This document shows, piece by piece, positions 6,076 through 60,047 of a DNA stretch of 64,000 nt. Every line of letters starts with the position of its first letter. Position 1 is the stretch's first letter. Under the pieces are notes generated by a model. The model was not told where the DNA came from. It saw only the letters and a program-made list of their open reading frames with translations, and did not search any database. The translations under genes were made by a program, and so were the position numbers. Origin of the DNA: Arachis hypogaea (lineage: Eukaryota; Streptophyta; Magnoliopsida; Fabales; Fabaceae); the NCBI RefSeq assembly GCF_003086295.3, contig NC_092046.1, forward strand, positions 101,349,363-101,413,362. The letters run 5' to 3'.

Positions 6076-6203
6076 CGCTTCACTGGGAGGGAACCAAATG
6101 CACCCTGACCCATGCCACTTGAACCAAGCCATCCGGATCCACTCTTCTTCAAGTCCAAAGCCAAAAGCCCATTCCAAGTGCTTAGTGACTAGAATAGAAA
6201 ATG

Positions 6204-6211
6204 TATAAATA
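6204..6211 (+). promoter_or_regulatory. TATA box, 5' LTR of C
   Basis: TATAAATA followed by GGAGC. The copy in the 3' LTR is at 23172-23179. This is the likely start region of the genomic transcript. Confidence 0.6.
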
Positions 6212-13539: not shown

Positions 13540-13544
13540 CCAAT
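13540..13544. repeat. Target-site duplication of element E (left copy)
   Basis: CCAAT. The right copy is at 21545-21549. The exact match sets the borders of E. Confidence 0.9.
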
Positions 13545-34917: not shown

Positions 34918-36654
34918 TGATGAGCGGATAATTTACACCCTTTTGGCATTGTTTTTAGGTAGTTTTTAGTATGATTTAATTACTTTTTATTATATTTTTA
35001 TTAATATTTATTCCAAAATCACATTTCTGGACTTTACTATGAGTTTGTATGTTTTTCTGTGATTTCAGGTATTTTCTGGCTGAAATTGAGGGACCTGAGC
35101 AAAAATTTGATTCAGAGGCTGAAAAAGGACTGTAGATGCTGTTGGATTCTGACCCTTCTGCACTCAAACTGGATTTTCTGGAGTTACAGAAACCCAATTG
35201 GCACGTTCTTAATTGCGTTGGAACGTAGACATCCTGGGATTTCCAGCAATATATAATAGTCCATACTTTGCTCGAGATTTGATGGCCCAAACTGGCGCTA
35301 AAAGCCAGCCTAAAACTTCCTGGCGTAAAACGCCCAAACTGGCACCAGAATTGGAGTTAAACACCCAAACTGGCACCCAAGCTGGCGTTTAACTCCAAGA
35401 ACAGCCTATCCATGTGTAAAGCTCAATGCTCAGCCCAAGCACACACCAAGTGGGCCCCGGAAGTGGATTTCTGCACTATCTGCACTTAGTTACTCATTTT
35501 CTGTAAACCCTGGGTTACTAGTTTAGTATAAAAACTACTTTTAAAGATTTATTATATATCTTTGGATCATCTTTGGATCACTTTTGATCTTCTGACCATT
35601 GTTCACATTTTGAGAGGCTGGCCTCATGGCCATGCCTAGACTATTTTCACTTATATATTTTCTACGGTGGAGTTTCTACACCCCAAAGATTAAGGTGTGG
35701 AGCACTGCTATTCTTCATGAATTAATGCAAGTACTATTGTTTTTCTTTCAATTCATGCCTACTTCTTCTCCAAGATATACTATTGTACTTAATTCAGTTA
35801 AGTCAGAATGAAGGGTTGACCTGTGACAATCACCCACTATCTTCGTTACTCGCTTAGCTAAGATCCGGGTGCCTGACAACCACAAACGGTCTACATGATG
35901 TTCAACGTAATCATTGGACAACAGCCGGAGTATATTCTCTTGGGTTTCTAATCAAAGATTCACATCATCTCTCCTGACAACAGAGCATATGAATCTAAGA
36001 TTAGAACCATCGTGGTATAAGCTATAACCAATTGGTAGCATTCTTGGGATCCAGAAAGTCTAAACCTTGTCTGTGGTATTCCGAGTAGGATCCGGGAAGG
36101 GATGACTGTGACGAGCTTCAAACCTGCGAATGTTGGGCGCAGTGACAGTGTGCAAAAGGACAAGGGTCTTATTCCAATGCTAGTGGGAACCGACAGATGA
36201 TTAGCCGTGCAGTAGCTGTACATGGTATTTTTCATCCGAGACGAGAAATCTGACAGTTGATTAGCCGTGCAGAGATCGTACCTGGTATTTTTCATCCGAG
36301 AGGATCATACAGCTTGCCATGGAAGGGAGTATGCATGGTTAGAAGAAGGCAATAGGAAAGCAGAGGTTTAGAAGCAACAAAGCATCTCCAGACGCTTATC
36401 TGAAATTCCCACCAATGAATTACATAAGTAACTTTATTTTATTTTATGTTTTATTTATATTTTAATTATCAAAACTTCATAACCATTTGAATCCGCCTGA
36501 CTGAGATTTACAAGGATGACCATAACTTGCTTCAAGCCGACAATCTCCGTGGGATCGACCCTTACTCACGTAAGGTATTACTTGGACGACCAAGTGCACT
36601 TGCTGGTTAGTTGTGCGGAGTTGTGTAAAGTGTGAATCACAATTTCCCACACCA
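34918..36654 (+). repeat. Element F, 5' LTR
   Basis: TGATGAGCGGATAATTTACA to ...CCCACACCA. It contains GGCGTTTAAC-type words (35290-35400) and the TATA box TATAAAAA at 35527-35534 (3' LTR copy 53553-53560). Confidence 0.9.
35527..35534 (+). promoter_or_regulatory. TATA box, 5' LTR of F
   Basis: TTAGTATAAAAACTAC context, about 130-240 bp downstream of the palindromic words. Confidence 0.5.
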
Positions 36655-36660
36655 AGTTTT

Positions 36661-36678
36661 TGGCGCCGTTGCCGGGGA
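36661..36678 (+). other. Primer binding site, element F
   Basis: TGGCGCCGTTGCCGGGGA, a perfect tRNA-Asp type site 6 nt after the LTR. Confidence 0.9.
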
Positions 36679-36709
36679 TTGTTCAAGTTCATCTTGTTGC
36701 TTAGATTAG

Positions 36710-36714
36710 GTAAT
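36710..36714. repeat. Target-site duplication of element G (left copy)
   Basis: GTAAT. The right copy reads GCAAT (46744-46748), with one transition since insertion. Confidence 0.75.
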
Positions 36715-38431
36715 TGATGAGCAGATAATTTATACGCTTTTTGACATTGTTTTTAGTAGGATCTAGTTACTTTTAGGGATGTTTTCATTAGTTTTTATGT
36801 TAAATTCACATTTCTGGACTTTACTATGAGTTTGTGTGTTTTTCTGTGATTTCAGGTATTTTCTGGCTGAAATTGAGGGACTTGAGCAAAAATCAGATTC
36901 AGAGGTTGAAGAAGGACTGCTGATGCTGTTGGATTCTGACCTCCCTGCACTAAAAATGGATTTTCTGGAGCTACAGAACTCTAAATGGCGCGCTTCTAAT
37001 TGCGTTGGAAAGTGGACATCCAGGGCTTTCCAGCAATATATAATAGTCCATACTTTGCCCAAGTTTAGACGACGCAAACTAGCGTTCAACGCCAGCTCTC
37101 TGCCCAATTCTGGAGTTCAGCGCCAGAAAGGGATCAAAAACCAGAGTTGAACGCCAGAAATGGATCAAAACCTGGCGTTCAACTCCACAAATGGCCTCTG
37201 CACCTGGAAAGTTAAAGCTCATCCCAAGCACACACCAAGTGGGCCCCGGAAGTGGATTTATGCATCAATTACTTACTTCTGTAAACCCTAGTAGCTAGTT
37301 TATTATAAATAGGACCTCTTACTATTGTATTAGACATCCTGGATTGTATTTTGATCCTATGATCTCGTTTTGGGGGCTGGCCATCTCGGCCATGCCTGGA
37401 CCTTTCACTTATGTATTTTCAACGGTAGAGTTTCTGCACTCCATAGATTAAGGTGTGGAGCTCTGCTGTTCCTCAAAGATTAATGTAAAGTACTACAGTT
37501 TTCTATTCAATTCATCTTATTTCGCTTCTAAGATATTCATTCGCACTTCAACCTGAATGTGATGAACGTGACAATCATCATCATTCCCTATGAACGCGTG
37601 CCTGACAACCACTTCCGTTCTACATCAGATTGAATGAGTATCTCTTAGATCTCTTAATCGGAGTCTTCGTGGTGTAAGCTAGAATGATGGCGGCATTCAA
37701 GAGAATCCGGAAGGTCTAAACCTTGTCTGTGGTATTCCGAGTAGGATTCAATGATTGAATGACTGTGACGAGCTTCAAACTCGCGATTGCTGGGCATAGT
37801 GACAGACACAAAAGGATAGTAAATCCTATTCCAGCATGATCGAGAACCGACAGATGAATAGCCGTGCCGTGACAGGGTGCGTTGACCATTTTCACTGAGA
37901 GGATAGGATGAAACCATTGACAAGGGTGATGCTCCAGACGATTAGCCGTGCCGTGACAGGGCATTTGGATCATTTTCCCGAGAGAAGACCGAAAGTAGCC
38001 ATTGACAGTGGTGATGTATCACATAAAGCCAGCCATGGAAAGGAGTAAGACTGATTGGATGAAGATAGCAGGAGAGCAGAGGTTCAGAGGAACGAAAGCA
38101 TCTCTATTCGCTTATCTGAAATTCTCACCAGTGATTTACATAAGTATTTCTATCCCTATTTTATTAATTAATTTCGAAAACCTCATTACTATTTTATATC
38201 TGCCTGACTGAGATTTGCAAGGTGACCATAGCTTGCTTCATACCAACAATCTCCGTGGGATTCGACCCTTACTCACGTAAGGTATTACTTGGATGACCCA
38301 GTGCACTTGCTGGTTAGTTGTGCGAAGTTGTGAACCATGGTATTGGCATCATGTTTTTGGCGCCATTACCAGGGAAAGAAAGAGCGATGAATTTTACATA
38401 ATCAAAGTGTAATCACAATTTCTGCGCACCA
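36715..38431 (+). repeat. Element G, 5' LTR
   Basis: TGATGAGCAGATAATTTATA to ...TTCTGCGCACCA. It contains GGCGTTCAAC words (37075-37185), TATAAATA at 37304-37311 and, unusually, a primer-site-like TGGCGCCATTACCAGGGA at 38358-38375 inside the LTR. Confidence 0.9.
37304..37311 (+). promoter_or_regulatory. TATA box, 5' LTR of G
   Basis: TTATTATAAATAGGACC context. The 3' LTR copy is at 45615-45622. Confidence 0.6.
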
Positions 38432-38437
38432 AGTTTT

Positions 38438-38548
38438 TGGCGCCGTTGTCGGGGATTATTCGAGTTTTCGGCAAGCTTTTGGTCCGGTAACATCAGTGCC
38501 AAGTTTGATCCGGCAACAACACCAAGTTTTTGGCGCCGTTGCCGGGGA
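38438..38548 (+). other. Two successive primer binding sites, element G
   Basis: TGGCGCCGTTGTCGGGGA at 38438-38455 (6 nt after the LTR) and a perfect TGGCGCCGTTGCCGGGGA at 38531-38548. With the copy inside the LTR (38358-38375) there are three in a row. Confidence 0.8.
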
Positions 38549-40378
38549 TTGTTCGAGTTTGGACAACTGACGGTTCATCTTGTTGCTCAGATTAGGTAAT
38601 TTCCTTTTGTTTTGTTTCCAAAAATTTTTCAAAAATCTTTCAAAAATTTCTCCTTTGTTCTTGAAAAAAAAAATAAAAAAAAAAAAATAAAAATAATGTT
38701 TTCAAAAAATAAATTATTCTATGGCTTCAAAACTTTCAAGAATGAATTCTAGAGTTTCATGGTAACATGTTGAATCCTATCTGGCTGAAAAGCCATACCC
38801 AAACTCCTTTGGGATTGGTCTTCAACTAATCACCTCAATGGATGTAAATCCATTCTAAAGCTTGACTGGCTATTAAGCCATGTCTAACCCTCATATTGGA
38901 GCTTTAGACTAAAGAGTACAAGATTCCTGGAATTCATATGAAAAATTTTGAATCCTTATTTTTTCTTTTTCAAAATGATTTTCGAAAATTTTAAAATAAA
39001 AATACAAAAAAAAATCATAAAATCATAAAAATCAAAAATATTTTGTGTTTCTTGTTTCAGTCTTGAGTCATGTTATAAGTTTGGTGTCAATTGCATGTGC
39101 ATCTTGCATTTTTCGAAAATTCTCATGCATTCATAGTGTTCTTCATGATCTTCAAGTTGTTCTTGGTAAGTCTTCTTGTTTGATCTTTGCATTTGCATGT
39201 TTTGTGTCTTTTCTTGTTTTTCATATGCATTCTTGAATTCTTAGTGTCTAAGCATTAAAGAATTCTAAGTTTGGTGTCTTGCATGTTTTCCTTGCATTAA
39301 AAATTTTTCAAAAATATGTTCTTGGTGTTCATCTTGACATTCAAAGTGTTCTTGGTGTTCATCTTGACATTCATAGCATTCTTGCATGCATTCATTGTTT
39401 TAATCTAAAAATTTCATGCATTGCATCATTTTTCTTGTTTTTCTCTCTCATCATAAAAATTCAAAAATAAAAAAAATATCTTTCCCTTTTTCTCTCTTAA
39501 AATTTCAAAAATTAGATTTGACTTTTTCAAAAACTTTTAAAATCTAGTTGTTTTTATGAGTCAAATCAAATTTTCAATTTAAAAATCTCATCTTTTTCAA
39601 AATCTTTTTCAAAAATCAAATCTTTTTCATTTTTTTTAGTTATTTTCGAAAATTTCAAAAATCTTTTTCTTAATTTTAACTCAAATTTTCGAAAATAACA
39701 ATAACAATTAATGTTTTGATTCAAAAATTTCAAGTTTGTTAATTACGTGTTAAGAAAGATTCAAACTTTAAGTTCTAGAATCATATCTTGTGATTTCTTG
39801 TGAATCAAGTCATTAATTGTGATTTTAAAAATCAAATCTTTTTCAAAACTAATCTCAATCATATATTTTCAAAAGTATCTTCTTATCTTATCTTTTTCAA
39901 AATTTGATTTCAAAATATCTTCTCTAACTTCCCAACTCCTTATCTTTTCAAAATTTGTTTCAACCAACTAACTAACTTTTTGTTTGTTTCTTATCTTTTT
40001 CAAAACTACCTAACTAACTCTTTCTCTCTCTAATTTTCGAAAATATCTCCCTCTTTTTCAAAATTTCTTTTTAATTAAACTAATTATTTTATTTTTTATT
40101 TGAATTTTCGAAAAACTACTAACCCTTTTCAAAATTAATTTTCGAAAATTACTAACCCTCTTTCAAAAATTATTTTCGAAAATCCTCTCCCTCTCTCATC
40201 TTATTCTATTTATTTATTCATCTACTAACATCTCTTCCTCACATCACTCACCAAATTCGAACCCCCTCTTCTATCTGTGTTCAAATTTTTCTTCTTCTTC
40301 TTTTTCTACTAACAATAAGGAACCTCTTTACTGCGAAATAGAGGATTCCTCTTCTTTTCTTTTTCTCTTCTCTTTCTT
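38549..40378 (+). mobile_element. Element G, AT-rich 5' leader
   Basis: 1.8 kb between primer sites and gag. It holds eight copies of the palindrome TTTTCGAAAA (near 38980, 39110, 39642, 39685, 40031, 40101, 40138, 40172). It also has two copies of TAAGTTTGGTGT (39076-39087, 39266-39277) and a small tandem repeat (GTTCTTGGTGTTCATCTTG, 39320-39366). No coding frame. Confidence 0.75.
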
Positions 40379-42697
40379 ATGAGAAGGGATAGAGAAAAAT
40401 GCATTCTTGTTGAAGCTGATCCAGAACCTGAAAGGACTCTGAAGAGGAAACTAAGAGAAGCTAAATTACAACAATCCAGAGACAACTTGATTGAAAATTT
40501 CGAACAAGTAAAGGAGATGGCAGCCGAACCCAACAACAATGCAAGGAGAATGCTTGGTGACTTTACTGCACCTAATTCCAATTTACATGGAAGAAGCATC
40601 TCCATTCCTGCCATTGGAGCAAACAATTTTGAGCTGAAACCTCAGCTAGTTTCTCTGATGCAGCAGAACTGCAAGTTTCATGGACTTCCATCTGAAGATC
40701 CTTTTCAGTTCTTAACTGAATTCTTGCAGATATGTGATACTGTTAAGACTAATGGAGTAGATCCTGAAGTCTACAGGCTCATGCTTTTCCCTTTTGCTGT
40801 AAGAGACAGAGCTAGAGTATGGTTGGACTCTCAACCCAGAGATAGCCTAAACTCTTGGGATAAGCTGGTCATGGCTTTCATAGCCAAGTTCTTTCCTCCT
40901 CAAAAGCTTAGTAAACTTAGAGTGGACGTTCAGACCTTCAGACACAAAGAAGGTGAATCCCTCTATGAAGCTTGGGAGAGATACAAAGGACTGACCAAAA
41001 AGTGTCCTACTGACATGCTTTCAGAATTGACCATCCTGGATATATTCTATGATGGTTTATCTGAGCTATCAAAGATGTCATTAGATACTTCTGCAGGTGG
41101 ATCCATTCACCTAAAGAAAATGCCTGCAGAAGCTCAAGAACTCATTAACATGGTTGCTAATAACCAGTTCATGTACACTTCTGAGAGGAATCCTGTGAGT
41201 AATGGGACGCCTATGAAGAAGGGAGTTCTTGAAATTGATACTCTGAATGCCATATTGGCTCAGAATAAAATATTGACTCAGCAAGTCAATATGCTTTCTC
41301 AGATTCTGAATGGAATGCAAGCTGCATCCAACAGTACTCAAGAGGCATCTTCTAAAGAAGAAGCTTATGATCCTGAAAACCCTGCAATAGCAGAGATGAA
41401 TTACTTAGGTGAACCTTATGGAAACACCTATAATCCATCATGGATAAATCATCCAAATCTCTCATGGAAGGATCAAAGGCCTCAACAAGGCTTTAATAAT
41501 GGTGGAAAAAACAGGTTTAGCAATAGCAAGCCTTTTCCATCATCCACTCAGCAACAGACAGAGAATTCTGAGCAGAATCCATCTAGCTTAGCAAACTTAG
41601 TCTCTGATCTATCTAAGGCCACTGTGAGTTTCATGAATGAAACAAGGTCTTCCATTAGAAATTTGGAAGCACAAGTGGGCCAGCTGAGTAAAAGGATCAC
41701 TGAAATCCCTCCTAGTACTCTCCCAAGCAATACAGAAGAGAATCCAAAAAGAGAGTACAAGGCCATTGACATAACCAAAATGGCCGAACCCAATAAGGGA
41801 GAGGAGGACGTGAATCCCAAGGAGGAAGACCTCCTGGGACGCCCAGTGATCAATAAGGAGTTTCCCTCTGAGGAACCAAAGGACTCTGAGGCTCATCTAG
41901 AGACCACAGAGATTCCATTGAACCTCCTTATGCCATTCATGAGCTCTGATGAATATTCCTCTTCTGAAGAGAATGAGGATGTTACTGAAGAGCAAGCTGC
42001 CAAGTTCATTGGTGCAATCATGAAGCTAAATGCCAAATTATTTGGTATTGAGACTTGGGAAGATGAACCTCCCTTGTTCACCAATGAACTAAGTGATCTG
42101 GATCAACTGACATTGCCTCAGAAGAGACAGGATCCTGGAAAGTTCATAATACCTTGTACCATAGGCACCATGATCTTTAAGGCTCTGTGTGATCTTGGTT
42201 CAGGGATAAACCTCATGCCCCTCTTTGTAATAGAGAAACTGGAAATCTATGGGGTGCAAGCTGCTAAAATCTCATTAGAGATGGCAGACAATTCAAGAAA
42301 ACAGGCTTATGGACAAGTAGAGGACGTATTAGTAAAGGTTGAAGGCCTTTACATCCCTGCTGATTTCATAGTCCTGGATACTGGAAAGGAAGAGGATGAA
42401 TCCATCATCCTAGGAAGACCTTTCCTAGCCACAGCAAGAGCTGTGATTGATGTGGACAGAGGAGAATTGATCCTTCAATTAAATAAGGACAACCTTGTGT
42501 TTACAACTCAAGGATCTCTCTCTGCATCCATGAAAAGGAAGCAGAAAAAGCTTCTCTCAAAGCAGAGTCAACCAAAGCCCCCACAGTCAGACTCTAAGTT
42601 TGGTGTTGGGAGGCCACAACCAAACTCTAAGTTTGGTGTTGAACTCCCATATCCAAACTCTAAGTTTGGTGTTGGGGGAGTCTCAACAATGCTCTGA
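40379..42697 (+). CDS. gag: Element G gag-protease polyprotein, uninterrupted
   Basis: 772 codons open from ATG 40379 to TGA 42695-42697. Residues about 80-230 form the gag core (ANNFELKPQL, FAVRDRARVWLDSQP, FIAKFFPPQKL, ESLYEAWERYK), which would build the particle. An Asn/Gln-rich segment and an acidic linker follow. The aspartic protease lies at about residues 580-700, with the active-site loop CDLGSGINLMPL (Asp about 605) and the ILGRPFLATARAVIDV block intact. The end has SKFGV repeated three times, encoded by repeats of CTAAGTTTGGTGTTG. No CCHC knuckle and no reverse transcriptase follow. It is likely still translatable and resembles the gag of C and F. Whether it is expressed cannot be told from sequence. 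Confidence 0.88.
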   Translation: MRRDREKCILVEADPEPERTLKRKLREAKLQQSRDNLIENFEQVKEMAAEPNNNARRMLGDFTAPNSNLHGRSISIPAIGANNFELKPQLVSLMQQNCKFHGLPSEDPFQFLTEFLQICDTVKTNGVDPEVYRLMLFPFAVRDRARVWLDSQPRDSLNSWDKLVMAFIAKFFPPQKLSKLRVDVQTFRHKEGESLYEAWERYKGLTKKCPTDMLSELTILDIFYDGLSELSKMSLDTSAGGSIHLKKMPAEAQELINMVANNQFMYTSERNPVSNGTPMKKGVLEIDTLNAILAQNKILTQQVNMLSQILNGMQAASNSTQEASSKEEAYDPENPAIAEMNYLGEPYGNTYNPSWINHPNLSWKDQRPQQGFNNGGKNRFSNSKPFPSSTQQQTENSEQNPSSLANLVSDLSKATVSFMNETRSSIRNLEAQVGQLSKRITEIPPSTLPSNTEENPKREYKAIDITKMAEPNKGEEDVNPKEEDLLGRPVINKEFPSEEPKDSEAHLETTEIPLNLLMPFMSSDEYSSSEENEDVTEEQAAKFIGAIMKLNAKLFGIETWEDEPPLFTNELSDLDQLTLPQKRQDPGKFIIPCTIGTMIFKALCDLGSGINLMPLFVIEKLEIYGVQAAKISLEMADNSRKQAYGQVEDVLVKVEGLYIPADFIVLDTGKEEDESIILGRPFLATARAVIDVDRGELILQLNKDNLVFTTQGSLSASMKRKQKKLLSKQSQPKPPQSDSKFGVGRPQPNSKFGVELPYPNSKFGVGGVSTML

Positions 42698-42755
42698 ACA
42701 TCTGTGAGGCTCCCTGAGAGCCCACTGTCAAGCTATTGACATTAAAGAAGCGCTT

Positions 42756-42773
42756 GTTGGGAGGCAACCCAAT
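42756..42773 (+). other. Post-ORF hairpin, element G
   Basis: GTTGGG-AGGCAA-CCCAAT: a 5-bp stem plus one G-U pair, 58 nt after the gag-protease stop. Confidence 0.7.
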
Positions 42774-42904
42774 TTCTATTTATCTAACTATATTTTTCTT
42801 AGTTATATGTCTTTATAGGTTCATGATCATGTGGAGTCACAAAATAAACGAAAAATTTAGAAACAGAATCAAGAACAGCAGAAGAAAAATCACACCCTGG
42901 AGGA

Positions 42905-43155
42905 AGCACCTGTCTGGCGTTCAACGCCAGAACAGAGCATGGTTCTGGCGCTGAACACCCAAAATGGGCAGTGTCTGGGCACTGAACGCCCAAAATGGAC
43001 ATCATCTGGGCGCTGAACGCCAGAATGGCACCCTGGAGAAGAGCTGGTGCTGAACGCCCAGAACAAGCATGCTTCTGGCGTTCAACGCCAGAAATGGCCA
43101 ACAAATGGGCGTTGAACGCCCAAAATGGGCACCAACCTGGCGCTGAACGCCCAGA
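42905..43155. repeat. GGCGTTCAACGCC palindrome array inside element G
   Basis: About eight palindromic words in 250 bp. The 17-mer CTGGCGTTCAACGCCAG is at 42914-42930 and 43075-43091; the rest are variants (GGGCGCTGAACGCC and similar). The LTRs of G carry the same TTCAA version (37075-37185, 45390-45500). Confidence 0.85.
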
Positions 43156-43507
43156 AGTTGTGTGCAAGGGCATTTTACATGCCTAATTTGGTGCAAGGTT
43201 GTAAATCCTTGAACACCCCAGGATCTGTGGACCCCACAGGATCCCCACCTACCTCACCCTCTCTCTCCATTCATGATCATCCCTTCTGTTTTCCATTCAC
43301 GACTCACATCCATACATCCCACTTACCTACAAAATTCAATATCTCTTTCCCACCCAATCCCACCCATATGGCCGAATACACACATCCCCCCATCTCCTCC
43401 ATATCTTCTTCTTCTTCCTCTATTCTTTCTTCTTTTGCTCGAGGGCAAGCAACATTCTAAGTTTGGTGTGGTAAAAGCATAAGCTTTTTGTTTTTCCATT
43501 ACCATTG

Positions 43508-43968
43508 ATGGCACCTAAACCTCTAAAAGAGGGGAAGGGAAGACAAAGGCTTCCACCTCCGAGTCATGGGAGATGGAAAGATTCATCTCAAGGGTCTATA
43601 GCTCAGTGGTAGAATATGTGGCTGCAAATCAAGAGATCCCTGAGATACCTCAGGGGATGCACTTCCCTCCACATAAATATTAGGAGCAAATCAACACCTC
43701 CCTAGGAGAATTAAGTTCCAACATGGGATAATTAAGAGTGGAACATCAAGAGCACTCCATCATCCTTCATGAAATAAGAGAAGATCAAAAAGCAATGAGG
43801 GAGGAGCAACAAAGACAAGGAAGAGACATAGAAGAGCTCAAGGACATCTTTGGTTCCTCAAGAAGGAAACGCCAATTCATTCCTTGTTCTTATTTCTTCT
43901 GTTTTTCGTTTTCTATGTTATGTGCTTATCTATGTTTGTGTCTTCATTACATGATCATTAGTAGTTAG
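43508..43968 (+). pseudogene. Element G ORF2 remnant with captured tRNA-Cys half
   Basis: Starts at ATG 43508 (MAPKPLKEGKGRQRL, basic). A frameshift follows, and then the frame SWEMERFIS-RVYSSVVEYVAANQEIPEIPQG runs through a tRNA-Cys-derived stretch without a stop, up to TAG about 43680. The C-terminal coiled-coil-like part (VEHQEHSIILHEIREDQKAMREEQQRQGRDIEELKD) is open at 43738-43850. The Transposase_32-like core is missing, as in F. Confidence 0.65.
43592..43641 (+). other. 5' half of a tRNA-Cys(GCA), retro-captured
   Basis: GGGTCTATAGCTCAGTGGTA continues through D arm and anticodon arm (CTGCAAATC, anticodon GCA at 43623-43625) to GATCCCT. About 44 of 50 positions match plant nuclear tRNA-Cys as I remember it. 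The T arm and 3' acceptor strand are missing, so it is not a working tRNA gene. The same place in F (51487-51580) has ordinary ORF2 sequence. Confidence 0.8.
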
Positions 43969-45015
43969 TAACTATGTCTTAAAAGTTATGAATGTCCTAT
44001 GAATCCATCTCCTCTCTTAAATGAAAAATGTTTTAATTCAAAAGAACAAGAAGTACATGAGTTTTGAATTTATCCTTGAACTTAGTTTAATTATATTGAT
44101 GTGGTGACAATGCTTCTTGTTTTCTGAATGTGTGCTTAAACAGTGCATATGTCTTTTGAAGTTGTTGTTTAAGAATGTTAAATATGTTGGCTCTTGAAAG
44201 AATGATGACTAGGAGACATGTTATTTGATAATCTGAAAAATCATAAAAATTATTCTTGAGGCAAGAAAAAGCAGCAAAGAATAAAGCTTGCAGAAAAAAA
44301 AATAGGCGAAAAAAAATAGAAAGAAAAAGAAAAAGCAAGCAGAAAAAGCCAAAAGCTCTTAAAACCAAGAGGCAAGAGCAAAAAGCCAATAACCCTTAAA
44401 ACCAAAAGGCAAGGGCAAATAAAAAGGATCCCAAGGCTTTGAGCATCAGTGGATAGGAGGGCCTAAAGGAATAAAATCCTGGCCTAAGCGGCTAAACCAA
44501 GCTGTCCCTAACCATGTGCTTGTGGCGTGAAGGTGTCAAGTGAAAACTTGAGACTGAGCGGTTAAAGTCAAGGTCCAAAGCAAAAGAAGAGTGTGCTTAA
44601 GAACCCTGGACACCTCTAATTGGGGACTTTAGCAAAGCTGAGTCACAATCTGAAAAGGTTCACCCAATTATGTGTCTGTGGCATTTATGTATCCAGTGGT
44701 AATACTGGAAAACAAAGTGCTTAGGGCCACGACCAAGACTCATAAAGAAGCTGTGTTCAAGAATCATCATACTGAACTAGGAGAATCAATAACACTATCT
44801 GAACTCTGAGTTCCTATAGATGCCAATCATTCTGAACCTCAATGGATAAAGTGAGATGCCAAAACTATTCAAGAAAAAAAAAAAGCTACAAGTCCCGCTC
44901 ATATGATTGAAGCTATGTTTCATTGATAGTTTGGAATTTATAGTATATTCTCTTCTTTTTATCCTATTTGATTTTCAGTTGCTTGGGGACAAGCAACAAT
45001 TTAAGTTTGGTGTTG
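43969..45015 (+). mobile_element. Element G, 3' noncoding interior
   Basis: No coding frame. An A-rich stretch (44260-44350) is followed by a block at 44440-44870 that is strongly conserved in F (52370-52800), suggesting a conserved function. It ends AATTTAAGTTTGGTGTTG before the LTR. Confidence 0.75.
44978..44997 (+). other. Pre-LTR hairpin, element G
   Basis: GTTGCTTG-GGGA-CAAGCAAC: a perfect 8-bp stem, 18 nt before the LTR. Confidence 0.82.
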
Positions 45016-46743
45016 TGATGAGCGGATAATTTATACGCTTTTTGACACTGTTTTTAGTATGTTTTTAGTAGGATATAGTTACTTTTAGGGATGTTTTCAT
45101 TAGTTTTTATGTTAAATTCACATTTCTGGAGTTTACTATGAGTTTGTGTGTTTTTCTGTGATTTCAGATATTTTCTGGCTGAAATTGAGGGACTTGAGCA
45201 AAAATCAGATTCAGAGGTTGAAGAAGGACTGCTGATGCTGTTGGATTCTGACCTCCCTGCACTCAAAATGGATTTTCTGGAGCTACAGAACTCGAAATGG
45301 CACGCTTCTAATTGCGTTGGAAAGTAGACATCCAGGGCTTTCCAGAAATATATAATAGTCCATACTTTGCCCAAGTTTAGATGACACAAACTGGCGTTCA
45401 ACGCCAGCTCTCTGCCCAATTCTGGAGTTCAGCGCCAGAAAAGGATGAAAAACCAGAGTTGAACGCCAGAAATGGATCAAAACCTGGCTTCAACTCCACA
45501 AATGGCCTCTGCACGTGGAAAGTTAAAGCTCAGCCCAAGCACACACCAAGAGGGCCCCGGAAGTGGATTTATGCATCAATTACTTACTTCTGTAAACCCT
45601 AGTAGCTAGTTTATTATAAATAGGACCTCTTACTATTGTATTAGACATCCTGGATTGTATTTTGATCCTGTGATCTCATTTTGGGGGCTGGCCATCTCGG
45701 CCATGCCTGGACCTTTCACTTATGTATTTTCAACGGTAGAGTTTCTGCACTCCATAGATTAAGGTGTGGAGCTCTGCTGTTCCTCAAAGATTAATGCAAA
45801 GTACTACTGTTTTCTATTCAATTCATCTTATTTCGCTTCTAAGATATTCATTCGCACTTCAACCTGAATGTGATGAACGTGACAATCATCATCATTCCCT
45901 ATGAACGCGTGCCTGACAACCACTTCCGTTCTACATCAGATTGAATGAGTATCTCTTAGATCTCTTAATCGGAGTCTTCGTGGTGTAAGCTAGAATGATG
46001 GCGGCATTCAAGAGAATCCGGAAGGTCTAAACCTTGTCTGTGGTATTCCGAGTAGGATTCAATGATTGAATGACTGTGACGAGCTTCAAACTCGCGATTG
46101 CTGGGCGTAGTGACAGACGCAAAAGGATAGTAAATCCTATTCCAGCATGATCGAGAACCGACAGATGAATAGCCGTGCCGTGACAGGGTGCGTTGACCAT
46201 TTTCACTGAGAGGATAGGATGAAACCATTGACAAGGGTGATGCCTCCAGACGATTAGCCGTGCCGTGACAGGGCATTTGGATCATTTTCCCGAGAGAAGA
46301 CCGAAAGTAGCCATTGACAGTGGTGATGTATCACATAAAGCCAGCCATAGAAAGGAGTAATACTGATTGGATGAAGATAGCAGGAAAGTAGAGGTTCAGA
46401 GAAACGAAAGCATCTCTATTCGCTTATCTAAAATTCTCACCAGTGATTTACATAAGTATTTCTATCCCTATTTTATTAATTAATTTCGAAAACCTCATTA
46501 CTATTTTATATCTGCCTGACTGAGATTTGAAAGGTGACCATAGCTTGCTTCATACCAACAATCTCCGTGGGATTCGACCCTTACTCACGTAAGGTATTAC
46601 TTGGACGACCCAGTGCACATGCTGGTTAGTTGTGCGAAGTTGTGAACCTTGGTATTGGCATCATGTTTTTGGCGCCATTACCAGGGAAAGAAAGAGCGAT
46701 GAATTTTACATAATCAAAGTGTAATCACAATTTCTGCGCACCA
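45016..46743 (+). repeat. Element G, 3' LTR
   Basis: Mate of 36715-38431. It also carries the primer-site-like copy TGGCGCCATTACCAGGGA at 46670-46687. Confidence 0.9.
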
Positions 46744-46748
46744 GCAAT

Positions 46749-48191
46749 TTTATTTTATGTTTAAGATTTTTACTTTTATTTTTTATTTTCGAAAAAAATA
46801 TACAAAAAATTTTAGTATTCAAAAAATTCAAAAAAAAAATTATATTTCTTGTTAGAGTCTAGTGTCAAATTTTAAGTTTCGTGTCAACTGCATGTGTTCT
46901 TCTTTGATCTTCAAGTTGTTCTTGATAATTTTCCTTGTTTGATCTTTAATTCTTCTTGTTTTGTGTCTTTTCTTGTTTTTCATATGCATTTTCGAATTCA
47001 TAGTGTCTAAACATTAAAAATTTATAAGTTTGGTGTCTTGCATGTTTTTCTTTTCTTAAAAATTTTCAAAAATATGTTCTTGATGTTCATCATGATCTTC
47101 AGAGTGTTCTTGGTGTTCATCTTGACATTCAAAGTGTTCTTGCATGCATTATTAGTTTTGATCTAAAATTTCTATGTTTTGTGTCATTTTGTTGTTTTTC
47201 TCTTCCTTCATTAATTAAAAAAAATCAAAAATAATATATTTCCTTTATTTTACTAATAAATTTCAAAATTTTAGTTTGATTTGGTCAAAAATTTTTAAAA
47301 TTTAGTTGTTTCTTATTAGTCAAGTCAAAATTTTAATTTAAAAATTCTATCTTTTCAAATCTTTTGCAAAATCAAAACTTTTTCATTTTTCTTTCATGTT
47401 TTTCAAAAATTCTCCAAAATTAATTTTCAAAATCTTTTCCTTAATTTCATTTCATATTTTCGAAATTATTACTAACAATTAATATTTTGAATCAAATATT
47501 TCAAGTTGTTACTTGCCTATTAAGAAAGGTTCAATCTTTAAATTCTAGAATTATATATTTTAGTTTCTTGTTAGTCAAGTAATCAACTTTAATTTCAAAA
47601 ATCAAATCTTTTTAATTTCCATTTCAAATCTTTTTCAAAATGAATTTCAATCATATCTTTTTAAAAATTTAATTTCAAAATCTTTTTCTAACTTCTTATC
47701 TTTTCAAAATTGATTTTCAAATCTTTTTCAATTAACCACTTGACTTGTTTGTTTTAATTTAAAAAAAAAATGTTTACTATTTCTTATCTTTTTTAAAATC
47801 ACCTAATTAGTTCTCTCTCTCATTAATTTCGAAAACTAACTAACAACTTTTTGAAAAATCTTTTTAATTGATTAATTTATTTAGTTTTCAAATTACCTTT
47901 ATTTCTCTTCTTAAATTTCGAATTCTAACTAATAATTAAAATAAAAACAAAAATAATTTTCTTTTCTTTTTAATTATATTCGAAAACTCTCTCTCTCATC
48001 TCTTTCTATTTATTTTATTTATTTACTAACACTTCTCTTCTTCGTATAATTCGAACCCTCTCTCTCTCTCTGTGTTCGAATTCTTCTCATTCTATCCCTA
48101 TCTCATTCTTCTATTCTTCTACTCATATAAAGGAATCTTTATACTGTGACATAGAGGATTCCTCTTCTTTTTCTATTCTCTTCTTTTTCAT
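46749..48191 (+). mobile_element. Element F, AT-rich 5' leader
   Basis: Resumes F after G. It parallels the leader of G, but most TTTTCGAAAA copies have decayed. One TAAGTTTGGTGT lies at 47025-47036. No coding frame. Confidence 0.75.
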
Positions 48192-50473
48192 ATGAGCAGG
48201 AACAAGGATAAAAACATTCTTGTTGAAGTTGATCCTGAACCTGAAAGGACTCTAAAGAGGAAGCTAAGAGAAGCTAAAGCACAACACTCTGGAGAGGACC
48301 TAACAGAGATTTTCAAAAAAGAAGAAGTTATGGCAGCCAAAAATAACAACAATAGTGGAGATGCAAGGAAGGTTCTTGGTGACTTTACTGCACCAACTTT
48401 TGACTTCTATGGAAGAAACATCTTAATTCCTGCAATTGGAGCAAACAACTTTGAGCTTAAGCCTCAATTAGTTTTTGTAATGCAGCAGAATTGCAAGTTT
48501 CATGGACTTCTATTGGAAGATCCTCATCAGTTTTTAGCTAAATTCTTGCAAATCTGTGATATTGTTAAGACCAATGGGGTTAATCCTGAGGTCTACAGAC
48601 TTATGCTTTTCCCCTTTGCTGTAAGAGACAGAGCTAGGATATGGTTGGACTCACAACCTAAAGAAAGCCTGAACTCTTGGGAAAAGTTGGTCAATGCTTT
48701 CTTGGCCAAATTCTTTCCACCTCAAAAGTTGAGCAAGCTTAGAGTGGAAGTTCAAACCTTCAGACAGAAGGAACGTGAATCCCTCTATGAAGCTTGGGAA
48801 AGATACAAGCAATTGATCAGAAGGTGTCCTTCTAACATGCTTTCAAAATAGAGCATCTATGTATATTCTATGATGGTCTGTCTGAATTGTCCAAGATGTC
48901 ATTAGACCACTCTACTGGTGGATCTCTTCATCTGAAGAAGACACCTGCAGAAGCCCAGGAACTCATTGAAATGGTTACAAATAACCAGTTCATGTACACT
49001 TTTGAAAGAAATCCTGTGAATAATGGGACAACTTAGAAGAAAGGAGTTCTTGAGATTGATACTCTGAATGCCATATTGGCTCAGAATAAAATATTGACTC
49101 AGTAGGTCAATATGATTTCTCAAAATCTGACTGGAATGCAAGCTGCATCCGGCAATACTAAAGAAGCTTCATCTGAAGGAGAAGCTTATGACCCTGAGAA
49201 TCCTAGAATGGAAGAGGTAAATTACATGGGAGAATCCTATTGAAATACCTATAATCCTTCATGGAAAAATCATCCTAATTTCTCATGGAAGGATCAACAG
49301 AAGCCTCAACAAGGCTTCAATAATAATAATGGTGGGAGAAATAAGTTTGGCAATAGCAAGTCTTTTCCATCATCTTCTGAGCAACAGACAGAGAATTCCA
49401 AGCAGAGCCTCTCTAACTTAGCAACCATAGTCTCTGATCTATCTAAAACCACTCTCAGTTTCATGACTAAAACAAGGTTCTTGATCAGAAATTTGGAGGC
49501 ACAAGTGGGTCAGCTGAGTAAAAGAGTTACTAAAATCCCTCCTAGTACTCTCCCAAGCAATACACAAGAGAACCCAAAGAGAGAGTGCAAGGCCATCAAT
49601 ATGTTCAACATGGCCGAACCTAAAGAGGAGGGAAATGCAGTGATTTCCAGTGAGGAAGACCTCAATGAACGTCCACTGGCCACTAAGGAGTTCCCTAATG
49701 AGGAACCAAAGGAATCTGAGGCTCATACAGAGACCATAGAGGTTCCACTGAACTTACTGTTGCCATTCATGAGCTCTGATGAGTATTCTTCCTCTAAAGA
49801 GGATGAAGATATTATTGAAGAGCAAGTTACTCAGTATCTAGGAGCAATCATGAAGCTGAATGCTAAGTTATTTGGTAATGAGACTTGGGAGGATGAACCT
49901 CCATTGCTCATCAATGAACTAAATGTCTTGGGGCAACTAAAGTTACCTCAGAAGAAACCGGATCCTGAAAAGTTCTTAATACCTTGTACCATAGGCACCA
50001 TGACCTTTAAGAAGGCTCTGTGTGACCTGAGATCAGGAATAAACCTCATTCCACTCTCTGTAATGGAGAAAATAGGGATCTTTGAGGTACAAGCTGTAAG
50101 ATTCTCACTAGAATTGGCAGACAAATCAAGGAAACAGGCTTATGAACTTGTACAGGATTTTTTAGTGAAGGTGGAAGGCCTATACATCCCTGCTGATTTT
50201 ATAATCCTAGACACTGGAAAGGAAGAGGATGAATCCAGTATCCTTAGAAGACCCATCCTAGCCATAGCAAGAGCTGTGATTGATGTGGACAGAGGAGAGT
50301 TAGTCCTTCAATTGAATGAGGACTACCTTGTGTTTAAGGCTCAAGGATCTTCTTCTGAAACCATGGAGATGAAGCATGAAAAGCTTCTCTCAACACAGAG
50401 TCAAACAGAGCCCCCACACTCAACTTCTAAGTTTGGTGTTGGGAGGCCACCATTAAGCTCTGAGTCTTTGTAA
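48192..50473 (+). pseudogene. gag: Element F gag-protease, broken
   Basis: Parallel to the gag-protease of G. The first frame (ATG 48192) covers the gag core (ANNFELKPQL, RDRARIWLDSQP, ESLYEAWERYK) and stops at TAG 48849-48851. A one-base loss just downstream shifts the frame. The second frame has TAG 49034-49036, TAG 49103-49105 and TGA 49241-49243, and is then open to TAA 50471-50473. The protease loop reads CDLRSGINLIPL, so the Gly after the catalytic Asp is Arg, and ILGRPF has become ILRRPI. The protein is therefore dead twice over. It has a single C-terminal SKFGV where G has three. Confidence 0.88.
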
Positions 50474-50521
50474 AGCTCTCTAAGAGCTCACTGTCAAGCT
50501 ATTGACATTAAAGAAGCGCTT

Positions 50522-50539
50522 ATTAGGAGGCAACCGAAT
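50522..50539 (+). other. Post-ORF hairpin, element F (decayed)
   Basis: ATTAGG-AGGCAA-CCGAAT: a 6-bp stem with one A-G mismatch and a conserved loop. Confidence 0.55.
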
Positions 50540-50682
50540 GTTATCTAATTATATCTATTTATTTTCCATTGTTATTTTATGTTTTCTTTAGGTTGATGAT
50601 CATGTGAAGTCATAAAAACAACTGCAGAATTAAAGCAGAATCAAAAATAGCATTAAAAACAGCATACCTTAGAGGACAGGCT

Positions 50683-50885
50683 TACTGGCGTTTAAACGCC
50701 AGTAAGGATAGCAGAATGGGCGTTTAATGCCCAGTCTGGCAGCATTCTGGGCGTTTAACGCCAGAAAAGGGTGTCTGGCTGGCGTTAAACGCCAGAAAGG
50801 GGTAGCAGACTGGCGTTTAATGCCAAGAAAGGTAGGAAAGCTTGTGTTAAACGCTAGAATTGGCACATAGAGGGCATTTAAACAC
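50683..50885. repeat. GGCGTTTAAACGCC palindrome array inside element F
   Basis: About seven words. The perfect 18-bp palindrome CTGGCGTTTAAACGCCAG is at 50685-50702. The TTTAA version matches the F LTRs (GCTGGCGTTTAACTCC, 35382-35397), not the TTCAA version of G. Confidence 0.85.
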
Positions 50886-51198
50886 CAGAATGGTGCAGGG
50901 AGCAGAATTCCTTGACACCTCAGGATCTGTGGACCCCACAGGATCCCTACCTACCCCACCTCTTCTTCTCTCCTTTTCACACATTTCCATAACACTCTTC
51001 CCCAAATACCCTTGACCAATCCCATCAATAACTCTTCCCCAAATACCCTTCAACTATGAAATCTTCCCCTCTTCTCCATAATCTCTTCACCACTCATATC
51101 CATCCCTCGTAAAACCTCACCTACCTCACCATTCAAATTCAAACCATTTCCCTCCCAAACCCACCCCTTTATAACCGAATTCCCTCTCTCTCTTACCC

Positions 51199-51206
51199 TA
51201 TAAATA
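51199..51206 (+). promoter_or_regulatory. Internal TATA box upstream of ORF2, element F
   Basis: CCCTATAAATACCCC, a textbook plant TATA context, 195 bp upstream of ATG 51394. It is followed by a CA/CT-rich leader and lies about 310 bp downstream of the palindrome array. It looks like a separate promoter for ORF2 (inference). Confidence 0.55.
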
Positions 51207-51393
51207 CCCCTCCTTACCACCTTCCATTTCACACTTCATACACACTTACCCCCTTGGCCGAACCCACTCCTCACCTCCATCTCCTCCATTTCTTCTTCTT
51301 CTCCTCGTTTCTTTTCTCTTTTGCTCGAGGACGAGCGAACCTTCTAAGTTTGGTGTGGAAAAAGCCCTGCTTTTTGTTTTTCCATAACCATTA

Positions 51394-51826
51394 ATGGCAC
51401 CTAAGGCCGGAGAAACCTCTAGAAAAAGGAAAGAAAAGGCAATAGCTTCCAACTCTGACTCATGGGAGGTGGAGAGATTCATCTCAAAAGCCCATCACTA
51501 AGAAAAGGGATGGACCAAATAAGAGAGCCCAATCATGGACCTCAACAAGAGCATGAGGAAATTCCTCATCATGAAATCCCTAAGATGCCTCAAGGGATGC
51601 ACTTTCCTCCACATAACTATTGGGAGCAACTCAACACCTCTTTAGGAGATTTGAGTTCTAACATGTAGCAACTAACAGTGGAGCACCAAGAGCACTCCAT
51701 CATCCTCCATGAAATCAAAGAAGACCAAAAGGCCATAAGAGAGGAGCAACAAAGGCAAGGAAGAGATATTGAGGAGCTCAAGCACTCCATAAGATCTTCA
51801 AGAAGAAGAACTAGCCGCCATCACTA
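51394..51826 (+). pseudogene. Element F ORF2 remnant
   Basis: Starts at ATG 51394 (MAPKAGETSRKRKEKAIASN, basic). After SWEVERFISKAHH a stop and frameshift follow. A second frame (51462-51668) has EPNHGPQQEHEEIPHHEIPK and YWEQLNTSLGDLSSNM, then TAG. The coiled-coil-like end VEHQEHSIILHEIKEDQKAIREEQQRQG runs to about 51826. The Transposase_32-like core is missing at the same place as in G, so the deletion predates their split or recurred. Confidence 0.65.
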
Positions 51827-52942
51827 AGGTGGACCCATTCTTTGATTTCCTTGTTCTTATTTTCCTGTTTTTTCGATTTCTATGCTTTATGTTTTATCTA
51901 TGTTTGTGTCTTTATTATATGATCATTAGTGTTTAGTGTCTATGTCTTAAAGCTATGAATGTCCTATGAATCCTTCACCTTTCTTAAATAAAAAAAATGT
52001 TTTCTGAAAAAGAAAAAGAAGTACATGAATTTTGAATTACATCTTGAAAATTATTTTGATGTGGTGGCAATATTTTTTGTTTTCTGAATGAATGCTTGAA
52101 CAGTGCATATATTTGGTATTGTTTATGAATGTTAAAATTGTTGGCTCTTGAAAGAATAATGAAAAAGGAGAAATGTTATTGATAATCTGAAAAATCATAA
52201 AATTGATTCTTGAAGCAAGAAAAAGCAGTGAAAAGCTTGCAGAAAAAAAAGAAAAGAAAAAAGTGGCGAAAAAAAAGAAAAAAAAAGAGAAAGAAAAAGA
52301 AAAAGCAAGTAGAAAAAGTTAATAACCCTTTAAACCAAAAGGCAAGGGTAAAAAGGATCCAAGGCTTTGAGCATTAATGGATAGGAGGGCCCAAAGGAAT
52401 AAAATCCTGGCCTAAGCGGCTAAACCAAGCTGTCCCTAACCATGTGCTTGTGGCGTGAAGGTGTCAAGTGAAAAGCTTGAGACTGAGCGGTTAAAGTCGT
52501 GGTAAAAAGCAAAAAGAGTGTGCTTAAGAGCTCTGGGCACCTCTAACTGGGGACTCTAACAAAGCTGAGTCACAATCTGAAAAGGTTCACCCAGTTATGT
52601 GTCTGTGGCATTTATGTATCTGGTGGTAATACTAGAAAACAAAATGCTTAGGGTCACAGCAAAGACTCATAAAGTAGCTGTGTTCAAGAATCAACACACT
52701 GAACTAGGAGAATCAATAACACTATTTGAATTCTGAGTTCGTTCCTATAGATGCCAATCATTTTGAACTTCAAAGGATAAAGTGAGATGCCAAAACTGTT
52801 CAGAAGCAAAAAGCTACTAGTCCCGTTCATCTAATTAGAGTTGAGCTTCATTGATATTTGAAATTTATTTTATTTTCTCTTCTTTTTATCCTATTTTGTT
52901 TTTAGTTGCTTGGGGGCAAGCAACAATTTAAGTTTGGTGTTG
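51827..52942 (+). mobile_element. Element F, 3' noncoding interior
   Basis: Parallel to 43969-45015 of G, including the strongly conserved block 52370-52800. No coding frame. Confidence 0.75.
52905..52924 (+). other. Pre-LTR hairpin, element F
   Basis: GTTGCTTG-GGGG-CAAGCAAC: a perfect 8-bp stem, 18 nt before the LTR. Confidence 0.8.
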
Positions 52943-54669
52943 TGATGAGCGGATAATTTATACCCTTTTTGGCATTGTTTTTAGGTAGTTTTTAGTATGA
53001 TTTAATTACTTTGTATTATATTTTTATTAGTTTTTATTCAAAAATCACATTTTTGGACTTTACTATGAGTTTGTGTATTTTTCTGTGATTTCAAGTATTT
53101 TCTGGATGAAATTGAGGGACCTGAGCAAAAATCTGATTCAGAGGCTGAAAAAGGACTGCAGATGCTATTGGATTCTGACCCTCCTGCACTCGAAGTAGAT
53201 TTTCTGGAGCTACAGAAGCCCCATTGGTGTGCTCTCACTTGCGTTGGAAATTAGACATCCTGGGCTTTCCAGCAATATAAAATAGTTTATACTTTGCCCG
53301 AGATTTGATGGCTCAAACTGGCGCTAAAAGCCAGCCTAAAACTTCCTAGCGTAAAATGCCCAAACTGGCACCAGAGTTGGAGTTAAACACCCAAACTGGC
53401 ACCCAAGCTGGCGTTTAACCTTAAGAACAGCCTATGCACGTGTAAAGCTCAATGCTCAGCCCAAGGACACATCAAGTGGGCCCCAGAAGTAGATTTCTGC
53501 ACTATGTGCACTTAGTTACTCATTTTCTGTAAACCCTAGGTTACTAGTTTAGTATAAAAACTACTTTTAGAGATTTATTATATATCTTTGGATCACTTTT
53601 GATCTTCTGACCATTGTTCACGTTTTGAGAGGCTGGCCTCATGTCCATGCCTAGAATACTTTCACTTATGTATTTTCTATGGTGGAGTTTCTACACCCCA
53701 TAGATTAAGGGGTGGAGCTCTGCTATTCTTCATGAATTAATGCAAGTACTATTGTTTTTCTTTCAATTCACACCTACTTCTTCTCCAAGATATACTCTTG
53801 TACTTAATTCAGTTAAGTTAGAATGAAGGGGTGACCTGTGACAATCACCCACTATTTTCGTTACTCGCTTAGCCAAGATCCGCATGCCTGACAACCACAA
53901 GCGGTCTACATGATGTTCAACGTAGTCATTAAACGACAGCCGGAGCATATTCTCGGGGGTTTCTAATCAAAGATTCATATCATCTCTCCTGATAACAGAG
54001 CATCTGAATCTGAGATTAGAACTTTCATGGTATAGGTTAGAACCAATTGGCAGCATTCCTGGGATTTGAAAAGTCTAAACCTTGTTTATGGTATTCCGAG
54101 TAGGATCCGGGAAGGGATGACTGTGACGAGCTTCAAATCTGCGAATGTTGGGCGCAGTGACAGTGTGCAAAAGGACAAGGGTCCTATTCCGATGCTAGTG
54201 GGAACCGACAGATGATTAGCCATGCGGTAGCTGTACATGGTATTTTTCATCCGAGATGAGAAATCCGACAGTTGATTAGCCGTGTAGAGATCGTACCTGG
54301 TATTTTTCATCCGAGAGGATCATACAGCTTGCCATGGAAGGGAGCACGCATGGTTGGAAGAAGGCAATAGGAAAGCAGAGGTTCAGAAGCAACAAAGCAT
54401 CTCCAGATGCTTATCTAAAATTCCCACCAATGAATTACATAAGTAACTTTATTTTATTTTATGTTTTATTTATATTTTAATTATCAAAACTTCATAACCA
54501 TTTAAATCCGCCTGACTGAGATTTACAAGGATGACCATAGCTTGCTTCAAGCCAACAATCTCCGTGGGATCGACCCTTACTCACGTAAGGTATTACTTGG
54601 ACGACCCAGTGCACTTGCTGGTTAGTTGTGCGGAGTTGTGAAAAGTGTGAATCACAATTTCCCACACCA
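52943..54669 (+). repeat. Element F, 3' LTR
   Basis: Mate of 34918-36654. It ends CCCACACCA before the duplication GTGAC (54670-54674). Confidence 0.9.
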
Positions 54670-54996
54670 GTGACTAGAGCGGATACACATCTGGTTAGGG
54701 TTCGATTGCTCAATTACATGTTTTCACCATAATCATACTTATTCATGCAAGTCTGTAAATCTTTTTGATAATTCAATTCAATTGTGGGTTGGATTTGATT
54801 CCTATTGCTTTAGCCCTTATGCTTACATATGTTCTCTTGGAAGTTAATTTGTTTTGACCAAGCATTTGAATTCATGATAGGTAGTTGCATTTAGAATAAG
54901 TTTGCATATAGTTTAGTTGCATTGAATAAATGTCATACCCTTTGTTTCCTTCTTGGTTTAGCATGTGGACATGCTATGGTTTAAGTGTGGGGAGGT
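54670..54996 (+). mobile_element. Element D, 3' noncoding interior (right piece)
   Basis: Resumes D after F. It ends with the purine tract GTGTGGGGAGGT before the LTR. Confidence 0.8.
54959..54976 (+). other. Pre-LTR hairpin, element D
   Basis: TAGCATG-TGGA-CATGCTA: a 7-bp stem, 20 nt before the LTR. Confidence 0.75.
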
Positions 54997-60027: not shown

Positions 60028-60047
60028 CTTGCTTGTCCCTAAGTAAG
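60028..60047 (-). other. Pre-LTR hairpin, element H (decayed)
   Basis: Minus strand CTTACTTA-GGGA-CAAGCAAG, 17 nt from the LTR. Two of eight pairs are A-C, as expected from two G-to-A changes in the stem of C. Confidence 0.65.

Follow-up and report, generated by a model that had tools for sequence, protein, structure and literature searches.

A compensated hairpin upstream of polypurine-tract-like strings in nested retrotransposons of Arachis hypogaea, a possible structural part of plus-strand initiation

In the Ty1/copia lineage of Sirevirus, an inverted repeat has been reported to flank the polypurine tract (PPT), with multiple PPTs lying upstream (Bousios et al. 2010, PMC2829016), and this is the nearest known description of the feature analyzed here. 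Existing accounts of plus-strand priming center, in the portions drawn on, on the sequence and geometry of the PPT itself (PMC5766924, PMC3185511); the exact choice of the plus-strand primer by reverse transcriptase (RT) is described as unclear for human immunodeficiency virus type 1 (HIV-1) (PMC5766924), and its molecular detail as largely unknown for retroviruses and long terminal repeat (LTR) retrotransposons (PMC3185511). The feature in question is a short hairpin placed just before the 3′ LTR of eight elements (A to H) in a nest of LTR retrotransposons that fills a 64-kb stretch of Arachis hypogaea DNA (contig NC_092046.1, positions 101,349,363 to 101,413,362; hereafter the window), the single source of all the hairpins, strings, and elements compared. 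There is, in our judgment, about an even chance that selection maintains this hairpin as a structural part of a cis-acting plus-strand initiation module, shared with a PPT-like string, in an Athila-like Ty3/gypsy group. The eight terminal hairpins, all of which were found where the first-pass annotation had placed them and with the loops and arms it had given, are the following:

44978-44997, plus strand: terminal hairpin of G, GTTGCTTG-GGGA-CAAGCAAC
44998-45015, plus strand: spacer and PPT-like string of G (TTTAAGTTTGGTGTTG), running to the 3′ LTR at 45016
52905-52924, plus strand: terminal hairpin of F, GTTGCTTG-GGGG-CAAGCAAC; 3′ LTR from 52943
22311-22330, plus strand: terminal hairpin of C, CTTGCTTG-GGGA-CAAGCAAG; LTR at 22348
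19944-19963, plus strand: terminal hairpin of E, TTAGCATG-AGGA-CATGCTAA; LTR at 19983
54959-54976, plus strand: terminal hairpin of D, TAGCATG-TGGA-CATGCTA; LTR at 54997
157-176, minus strand: terminal hairpin of A, TTAGCATG-AGGA-CATGCTAA
4735-4752, minus strand: terminal hairpin of B, TAGCATG-AGGA-CATGCTA
60028-60047, minus strand: terminal hairpin of H, decayed, with two mismatches and the loop GGGA

The terminal loop reads AGGA in A, B, and E, TGGA in D, GGGA in C, G, and H, and GGGG in F, and the arms measure 8 bp in A, C, E, F, and G and 7 bp in B and D, with two A·C mismatches in H, the number previously noted for it; in the 8-bp register the outer pair is U·G in B and U·U in D, and pairing is perfect over 7 bp at seven of the eight sites. 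The distance from the hairpin base (8-bp register) to the TG of the LTR is 17 nt in C and H, 18 nt in F and G, and 19 nt in A, B, D, and E, within the 17-20 nt first proposed, the LTR starts of C, D, E, F, and G being backed by LTR pairs and those of A, B, and H placed by likeness alone. Two motif classes can be recognized: class 1, xTTGCTTG-GGGR-CAAGCAAx followed by TTTAAGTTTGGTGTTG, comprises C, F, and G, plus H with G-to-A changes; class 2, TAGCATG-NGGA-CATGCTA followed by TTTAAGTGTGGGGAGGT or a near form, comprises A, B, D, and E. H differs from C at three positions, two in the 5′ arm and one in the PPT string, all of them G-to-A on the element strand, as expected from cytosine deamination in an old copy. 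The window contains 19 perfect hairpins with a 4-nt loop and arms of at least 7 bp, seven of which are the terminal sites, against a total of 6.6 under a first-order Markov null. Among at least 120 PPT-like strings collected from the viral database IMG/VR by a PPT-only pattern, and thus chosen regardless of any hairpin, none had a perfect stem of at least 7 bp (loop of 3-6 nt, in the 26 nt before the string), the best stem being one of 6 bp, found once.

A second unit of the same build, which the first-pass annotation had missed and which strengthens the case, precedes the terminal unit by about 1.45-1.72 kb in five elements, A, B, E, F, and G, and consists of a 7-bp hairpin with an NGGR loop, 3-4 nt, and then a near-copy of the PPT-like string:

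43435-43452, plus strand: internal hairpin of G, TTGCTCG-AGGG-CAAGCAA, with one C·A mismatch; PPT-like string at 43456-43468
51321-51338, plus strand: internal hairpin of F, TTGCTCG-AGGA-CGAGCGA; PPT-like string at 51343-51355
18491-18508, plus strand: internal hairpin of E, TGCACCG-AGGA-CGGTGCA; PPT-like string at 18512-18524
1875-1892, minus strand: internal hairpin of A, AGCATCG-AGGA-TGATGCT; PPT-like string at 1858-1870
24971-24988, minus strand: internal hairpin of B, TGCATGG-AGGA-CCGTGCA; string from 24967 downwards, probably belonging to B, beyond the C insertion, by its position

By coordinate arithmetic, the internal hairpin precedes the terminal one by 1453 nt in E, 1543 nt in G, 1584 nt in F, 1716 nt in A, and about 1510 nt in B once the C insertion is excluded. 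The internal stems of A, B, and E are unlike the terminal stems, and those of F and G resemble the class-1 terminal stem with further change. In A, E, F, and G the internal strings were located without requiring a hairpin, and at least six of seven pairs with an NGGR loop were then seen before them. The best candidate in C, before the string at 12943, reached only five of seven pairs and was rejected.

The proposal that the two arms change together is borne out between families. Over the eight terminal sites the covariation score is 0.423, against 0.129 after shuffling (standard deviation 0.055), a value reached by none of 500 shuffles; of the eight pairs, three vary on both sides, three are invariant, and two depart solely through H. 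With the internal copies included, giving 13 hairpins (10 distinct), the score rises to 0.848 against 0.215 (0/500), 95.7% of cells are paired against 63.5% in shuffles, and two-sided change is seen in six of seven pairs against 3.9, a count equaled or exceeded in 18 of 500 shuffles; among 153 column pairs, six of the stem pairs take ranks 1, 2, 4, 7, 12, and 16, and re-pairing the arms among the eight distinct stems gave an equal result in about 0.03% of 200,000 permutations. The selection on structure that had been suggested is supported by matched changes in three of eight pairs and, with the internal copies, in six of seven; the eight sites alone amount to two motif classes with a handful of independent compensations. 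The cells that are not Watson-Crick, read on the element strand, comprise four G·U (B outer; A, B, and F internal), three A·C (H twice, G internal), and one U·U (D outer). The two loop G's are invariant in all 13 hairpins. In all 10 of the element pairs compared (28 are possible), conservation of the hairpin exceeds that of the preceding 150 nt and that of the LTR over its first 130 nt. The terminal unit is identical in F and G at 37 of 38 positions against 0.85 just upstream, and the internal unit forms a conserved island (hairpin 18/21, string 16/17 identical) between flanks of 0.58 and 0.63.

Minimum-energy folds keep the hairpin at seven of the eight terminal sites (not in H) and at four of the five internal ones, that of A without its innermost G·U pair. 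A lower stem between the PPT and upstream pyrimidines, which appears in several of these folds, was rejected, its mean z being -0.02 against shuffled upstream sequence over the 13 modules; a less strict test, on the bases immediately beneath the hairpin, yielded P <0.07 in only three of eight. A whole-window scan with Rfam 15 gave no gathering-score match at the hairpins. Elsewhere, two marginal snoR71 matches (42.1 and 40.2 bits, cut-off 40) lie on the minus strand at 40913-41020 and 48735-48842, antisense in the gag of G and F, respectively.

The strings themselves are more numerous than the hairpins. The window holds 24 copies of TTTAAGTNTGGNG with at most one mismatch, where 1.9 are expected, seven copies being terminal and 17 internal, and the terminal string of B departing from TTTAAGTNTGGNG at two positions; of the internal ones, four (A 1858, E 18512, G 43456, and F 51343) carry an NGGR hairpin of at least six of seven pairs, and before those at 34310 and 39264 stand hairpins of seven pairs that include wobbles and enclose loops of another type. 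Hairpins of seven positions (at least six pairs) before AAGT[GTC]T amount to 20 rows against a null mean of 8.85 and maximum of 16; requiring an NGGR loop leaves 12 rows, from 11 sites, where 20 null runs averaged 0.15 rows and never exceeded 1. The 13-mer CTAAGTTTGGTGT (at most one mismatch) occurs 16 times, 11 of them exact, against 0.09 expected, and had gone unnoticed in the first pass. Its terminal copies are one base off the internal ones, and gag and the 5′ leader, rather than the linker, hold several of the copies. Copies of it without a qualifying NGGR hairpin stand at 12893, 12943, 13131, 39075, 39265, 42594, 42627, 42660, 47024, 50427, and 63210 (minus strand), among them three in tandem at the 3′ end of the G gag open reading frame (ORF), reading SKFGV, and three in C. 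All class-2 elements share a third PPT-like string (A 1025, minus; B 24290, minus; D 34310, plus; E 19100, plus), preceded by a common TTAGCTT stretch and lying 0.83-0.91 kb before the terminal string by hand-measured distances; an NGGR hairpin was looked for at this string and was absent in all four.

The elements were delimited by LTR pairs from comparison within the window, with the ends refined by eye, and the five plus-strand members concerned are as follows, A, B, and H being minus-strand elements:

36715-46743, plus strand: element G, LTRs 36715-38431 and 45016-46743, 97.3% identical; nested in F; gag ORF 40319-42697; RT not found
34918-54669, plus strand: element F, LTRs 34918-36654 and 52943-54669, 92.9% identical; nested in D
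element D, LTRs 27382-27935 and 54997-55551 (aligned), 94.4% identical; host of F
element E, LTRs 13544-15090 and 19982-21544, 93.3% identical; nested in C
element C, LTRs 5377-7129 and 22346-24093, 94.9% identical; by its position, nested in B

Target-site duplications read by eye, which likewise back the LTR starts, are gtgac/gtgac for F, ccaat/ccaat for E, atatg/atatg for C, and gtaat/gcaat for G. In a domain scan of 20 ORF pieces, RVT_1, RT_RNaseH, and Integrase_H2C2 were found in C alone, RT was not detected in D, E, F, or G, and a Retrotrans_gag domain was found in G; a tblastn search with the RT piece of C found no second copy in the window, the query being 284 amino acids long and such that a divergent RT could escape it. 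F and G have gag-related ORFs with RT undetected, and the Gag of G is nearest to Arachis proteins (top match 91%; best named match 82% identical, from A. hypogaea). The primer-binding site (PBS) region TGGCGCCGTTGCCGGGGA lies 6 nt past the LTR in F and recurs with one or two changed letters in G, C, and E; it is presumably complementary to tRNA-Asp. Diaspora is described as having a tRNA-Asp PBS 5 bp past its LTR (PMC1142308), and this likeness, together with the domains of C, is why the elements are taken as Athila-like Ty3/gypsy from their sequence; the Ty3-type Pol domains were found in C only, and D, E, F, and G would probably belong to the same lineage.

Other repeats accompany these elements. 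The palindromic 13-mer GGCGTTNAACGCC (at most two mismatches) occurs 26 times in the window against 0.35 expected, and 25 of the copies, mostly spaced exactly 31 bp, fall in 35294-35396, 37081-37186, 42916-43151, 45393-45467, 50719-50824, and 53320-53391, stretches that belong to the LTRs of F and G or precede the internal module of either element by 0.3-0.5 kb; these arrays resemble the boxes of repeated palindromic motifs described in Sirevirus (PMC2829016). In F, a perfect 11-bp inverted repeat around TTAA (50681-50706) adjoins the GGCGTT palindrome array. An array of 116-127-bp repeats with internal inverted symmetry (58817-59633) adjoins element H.

The first-pass annotation had suggested plus-strand priming, 3′ end formation, or packaging as roles for the hairpin. 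Plus-strand priming is favored by the internal hairpins, which also precede a PPT-like near-copy, whereas 3′ end formation is disfavored by those same copies, about 1.5 kb from the LTR: a hairpin that reappears with its string at such a remove from the LTR, and with a stem spelled differently, is most likely part of a plus-strand origin and not of LTR end formation. Moreover, F and G keep the hairpin without detected RT, and the feature is therefore likely cis-acting. The stem has not been lost in recently active copies, as far as one case can tell, G, the element with the most similar LTRs (97.3%), having a perfect terminal stem. The module would comprise the 7-8 bp hairpin with its NGGR loop, 2-4 nt (7-bp register), and the PPT-like string TAAGTKTGGKG, the terminal string abutting the 3′ LTR. 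What the DNA itself shows is that the arms can pair, that they covary, where the hairpin sits, and that the string accompanies it repeatedly; we infer that an RNA hairpin forms and is active, that the string serves as primer, and that RT stalls there. Retroviral RT is reported to stall at hairpin bases, with more RNase H cuts following (PMC3187697). Both arms would lie on the template just past the PPT as minus-strand synthesis proceeds, and RT would meet the hairpin right after copying U3 and the PPT. A pause of the enzyme at the hairpin base might then leave its RNase H domain at the PPT/U3 junction. This would fix the cut that yields the plus-strand primer, making this cut depend on the distance from a structure and less on polypurine sequence; an internal copy would set a second plus-strand origin likewise. 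HIV-1 RT is reported to cut 18 bp behind its polymerase site (PMC3185654), a spacing that would land on the LTR start. Such a stall would partly explain both the fixed 17-19 nt and the purine-poor class-1 ‘PPT’, AAGTTTGGTGTTG. An evolved RT-stalling roadblock at one polymerase-to-RNase-H distance from the U3 boundary, with the internal copy as a second origin, is offered as a tentative and rather doubtful refinement of the plus-strand module.

Several observations weigh against these interpretations. The shuffle controls ignore kinship among the elements of this one 64-kb window; for the eight terminal sites the number of pairs with two-sided change was equaled in 327 of 500 shuffles, and for the 13 hairpins the seventh stem pair ranks 90, with 10 of the top 16 column pairs lying outside the stem. 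In the alignment of F with G, conservation over 37-column windows peaks elsewhere, at 44499-44546, a segment in which the two elements are fully identical against 74% across the whole region compared. In C, D, and H the hairpin scans turned up no qualifying hairpin at an internal position, 13 of the 17 internal strings are without an NGGR hairpin, and the internal hairpin of B came from a relaxed hairpin scan and was chosen for its pairing. The mismatched internal hairpin of G is absent from the minimum-energy fold, and folding z-scores are unremarkable in D (-0.38), F (-0.90), F internal (+0.37), and G internal (+0.86). The RTs of Ty3 and cauliflower mosaic virus (CaMV) are reported to cut 10-14 nt behind the polymerase site (PMC11363490), and that of Ty3 about 13 bp behind (PMC5371799). 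With the Ty3/CaMV spacing the roadblock needs RT to stop a few nt before the stem and to cut 2-3 nt before the TG.

Packaging, the remaining suggestion, is better framed as a hairpin bound by Gag or nucleocapsid, in which the exposed NGGR loop would be a packaging or genome-selection signal and only a chance neighbor of the PPT. Retroviral nucleocapsid binds G-rich loops, and the loop G's that stay invariant in 13 of 13 hairpins despite a variable stem suggest that something reads the loop; the hairpin is also kept in gag-bearing elements in which RT was not detected. Nevertheless, the fixed LTR distance and the string after the internal copies would be left unexplained, and this alternative is considered unlikely.

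An RNA processing, export, or translation signal of the 3′ transcripts of the elements would agree with the pyrimidine-rich stretch before the terminal hairpins (0.65-0.85 over 40 nt) and with the internal tracts of F and G (0.95 and 0.93), whose hairpins end about 55 nt before an ATGGCACC start. The internal tracts of A and E, however, are not pyrimidine-rich (0.55 and 0.60), and the placement relative to reading frames varies, the internal module of A following a Transposase_32-like ORF, whereas that relative to the PPT-like string is constant; such a signal appears quite improbable. A DNA-level dyad, either a protein site or an extruded DNA hairpin, would be compatible with the non-Watson-Crick cells, which leave the strand undecided, but recognition by a protein would be expected to conserve the letters of such a dyad, and here the loop and the pairing are better kept than the stem letters, which renders this explanation more improbable still. 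Inheritance alone, by which ancestral hairpins would have been copied down with no selection on pairing, fits the terminal stems, near-identical within each of the two classes, but is very improbable given that the class-1 outer pair is C-G in C and H but G-C in F and G, that the internal stems of A, B, and E differ mutually by two-sided changes, and that the hairpin exceeds its flanks in every element pair compared.

The first-pass annotation knew of no description of the hairpin, and none upstream of the PPT in Athila/Tat elements was found among the titles and abstract openings listed, beyond which an earlier description may exist. The words hairpin, stem, palindrome, and inverted repeat are absent from the text of the Diaspora paper (PMC1142308), and the word hairpin from that of the REXdb and Retand papers. 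Four motif strings gave no occurrence alongside the word retrotransposon in the literature searched, and none of the matches listed is about retrotransposons by its title. The pattern GGACANGCNA..TTAAGTNTGG gave nine stretches in IMG/VR and its W-version nine in GTDB contigs, none with the arm by eye (the 5′ arm in the former), and the RT piece of C had no relative in IMG/VR; these viral and prokaryote collections have no bearing on plants. A directly testable structural rule for plus-strand priming would follow from a hairpin that covaries, keeps its distance, and recurs at an internal near-copy of the string, and the module would be a useful landmark for element ends and non-autonomous members. 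The Athila-like class of plant retrotransposons is abundant, and, if the roadblock is true, PPT choice would be partly structural in a large group of them.

As regards known systems, lentiviruses carry a central PPT and Ty1 is said to have a PPT2, and the internal PPT-like string resembles both in its conserved place; we know of no hairpin that accompanies either. The retroviral RNase H cuts that depend on pausing share the physical step proposed here, the difference being that, in the portion of PMC3187697 drawn on, pausing is described for template switching and not as an evolved part of the PPT. The elements resemble Diaspora, Calypso, and Athila, from legumes and Arabidopsis, in the presumed PBS a few nt past the LTR, the PPT-like string abutting the 3′ LTR, and the existence of env-less and env-bearing members, as described in PMC1142308. 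Like Sirevirus, they are plant LTR retrotransposons in which members of divergent sequence share an inverted repeat set precisely where the PPT meets the 3′ LTR, and they have several internal copies of a PPT or PPT-like string. The Sirevirus repeat, according to the passages of PMC2829016 consulted, has the PPT in its loop and its right arm inside the LTR, an arrangement that none of the present hairpins shows, and is not reported there at the upstream PPTs, whereas in these Ty3/gypsy elements the whole hairpin, both arms and the 4-nt loop between them, precedes the PPT and stands 17-19 nt from the LTR, and five internal copies have a hairpin as well.
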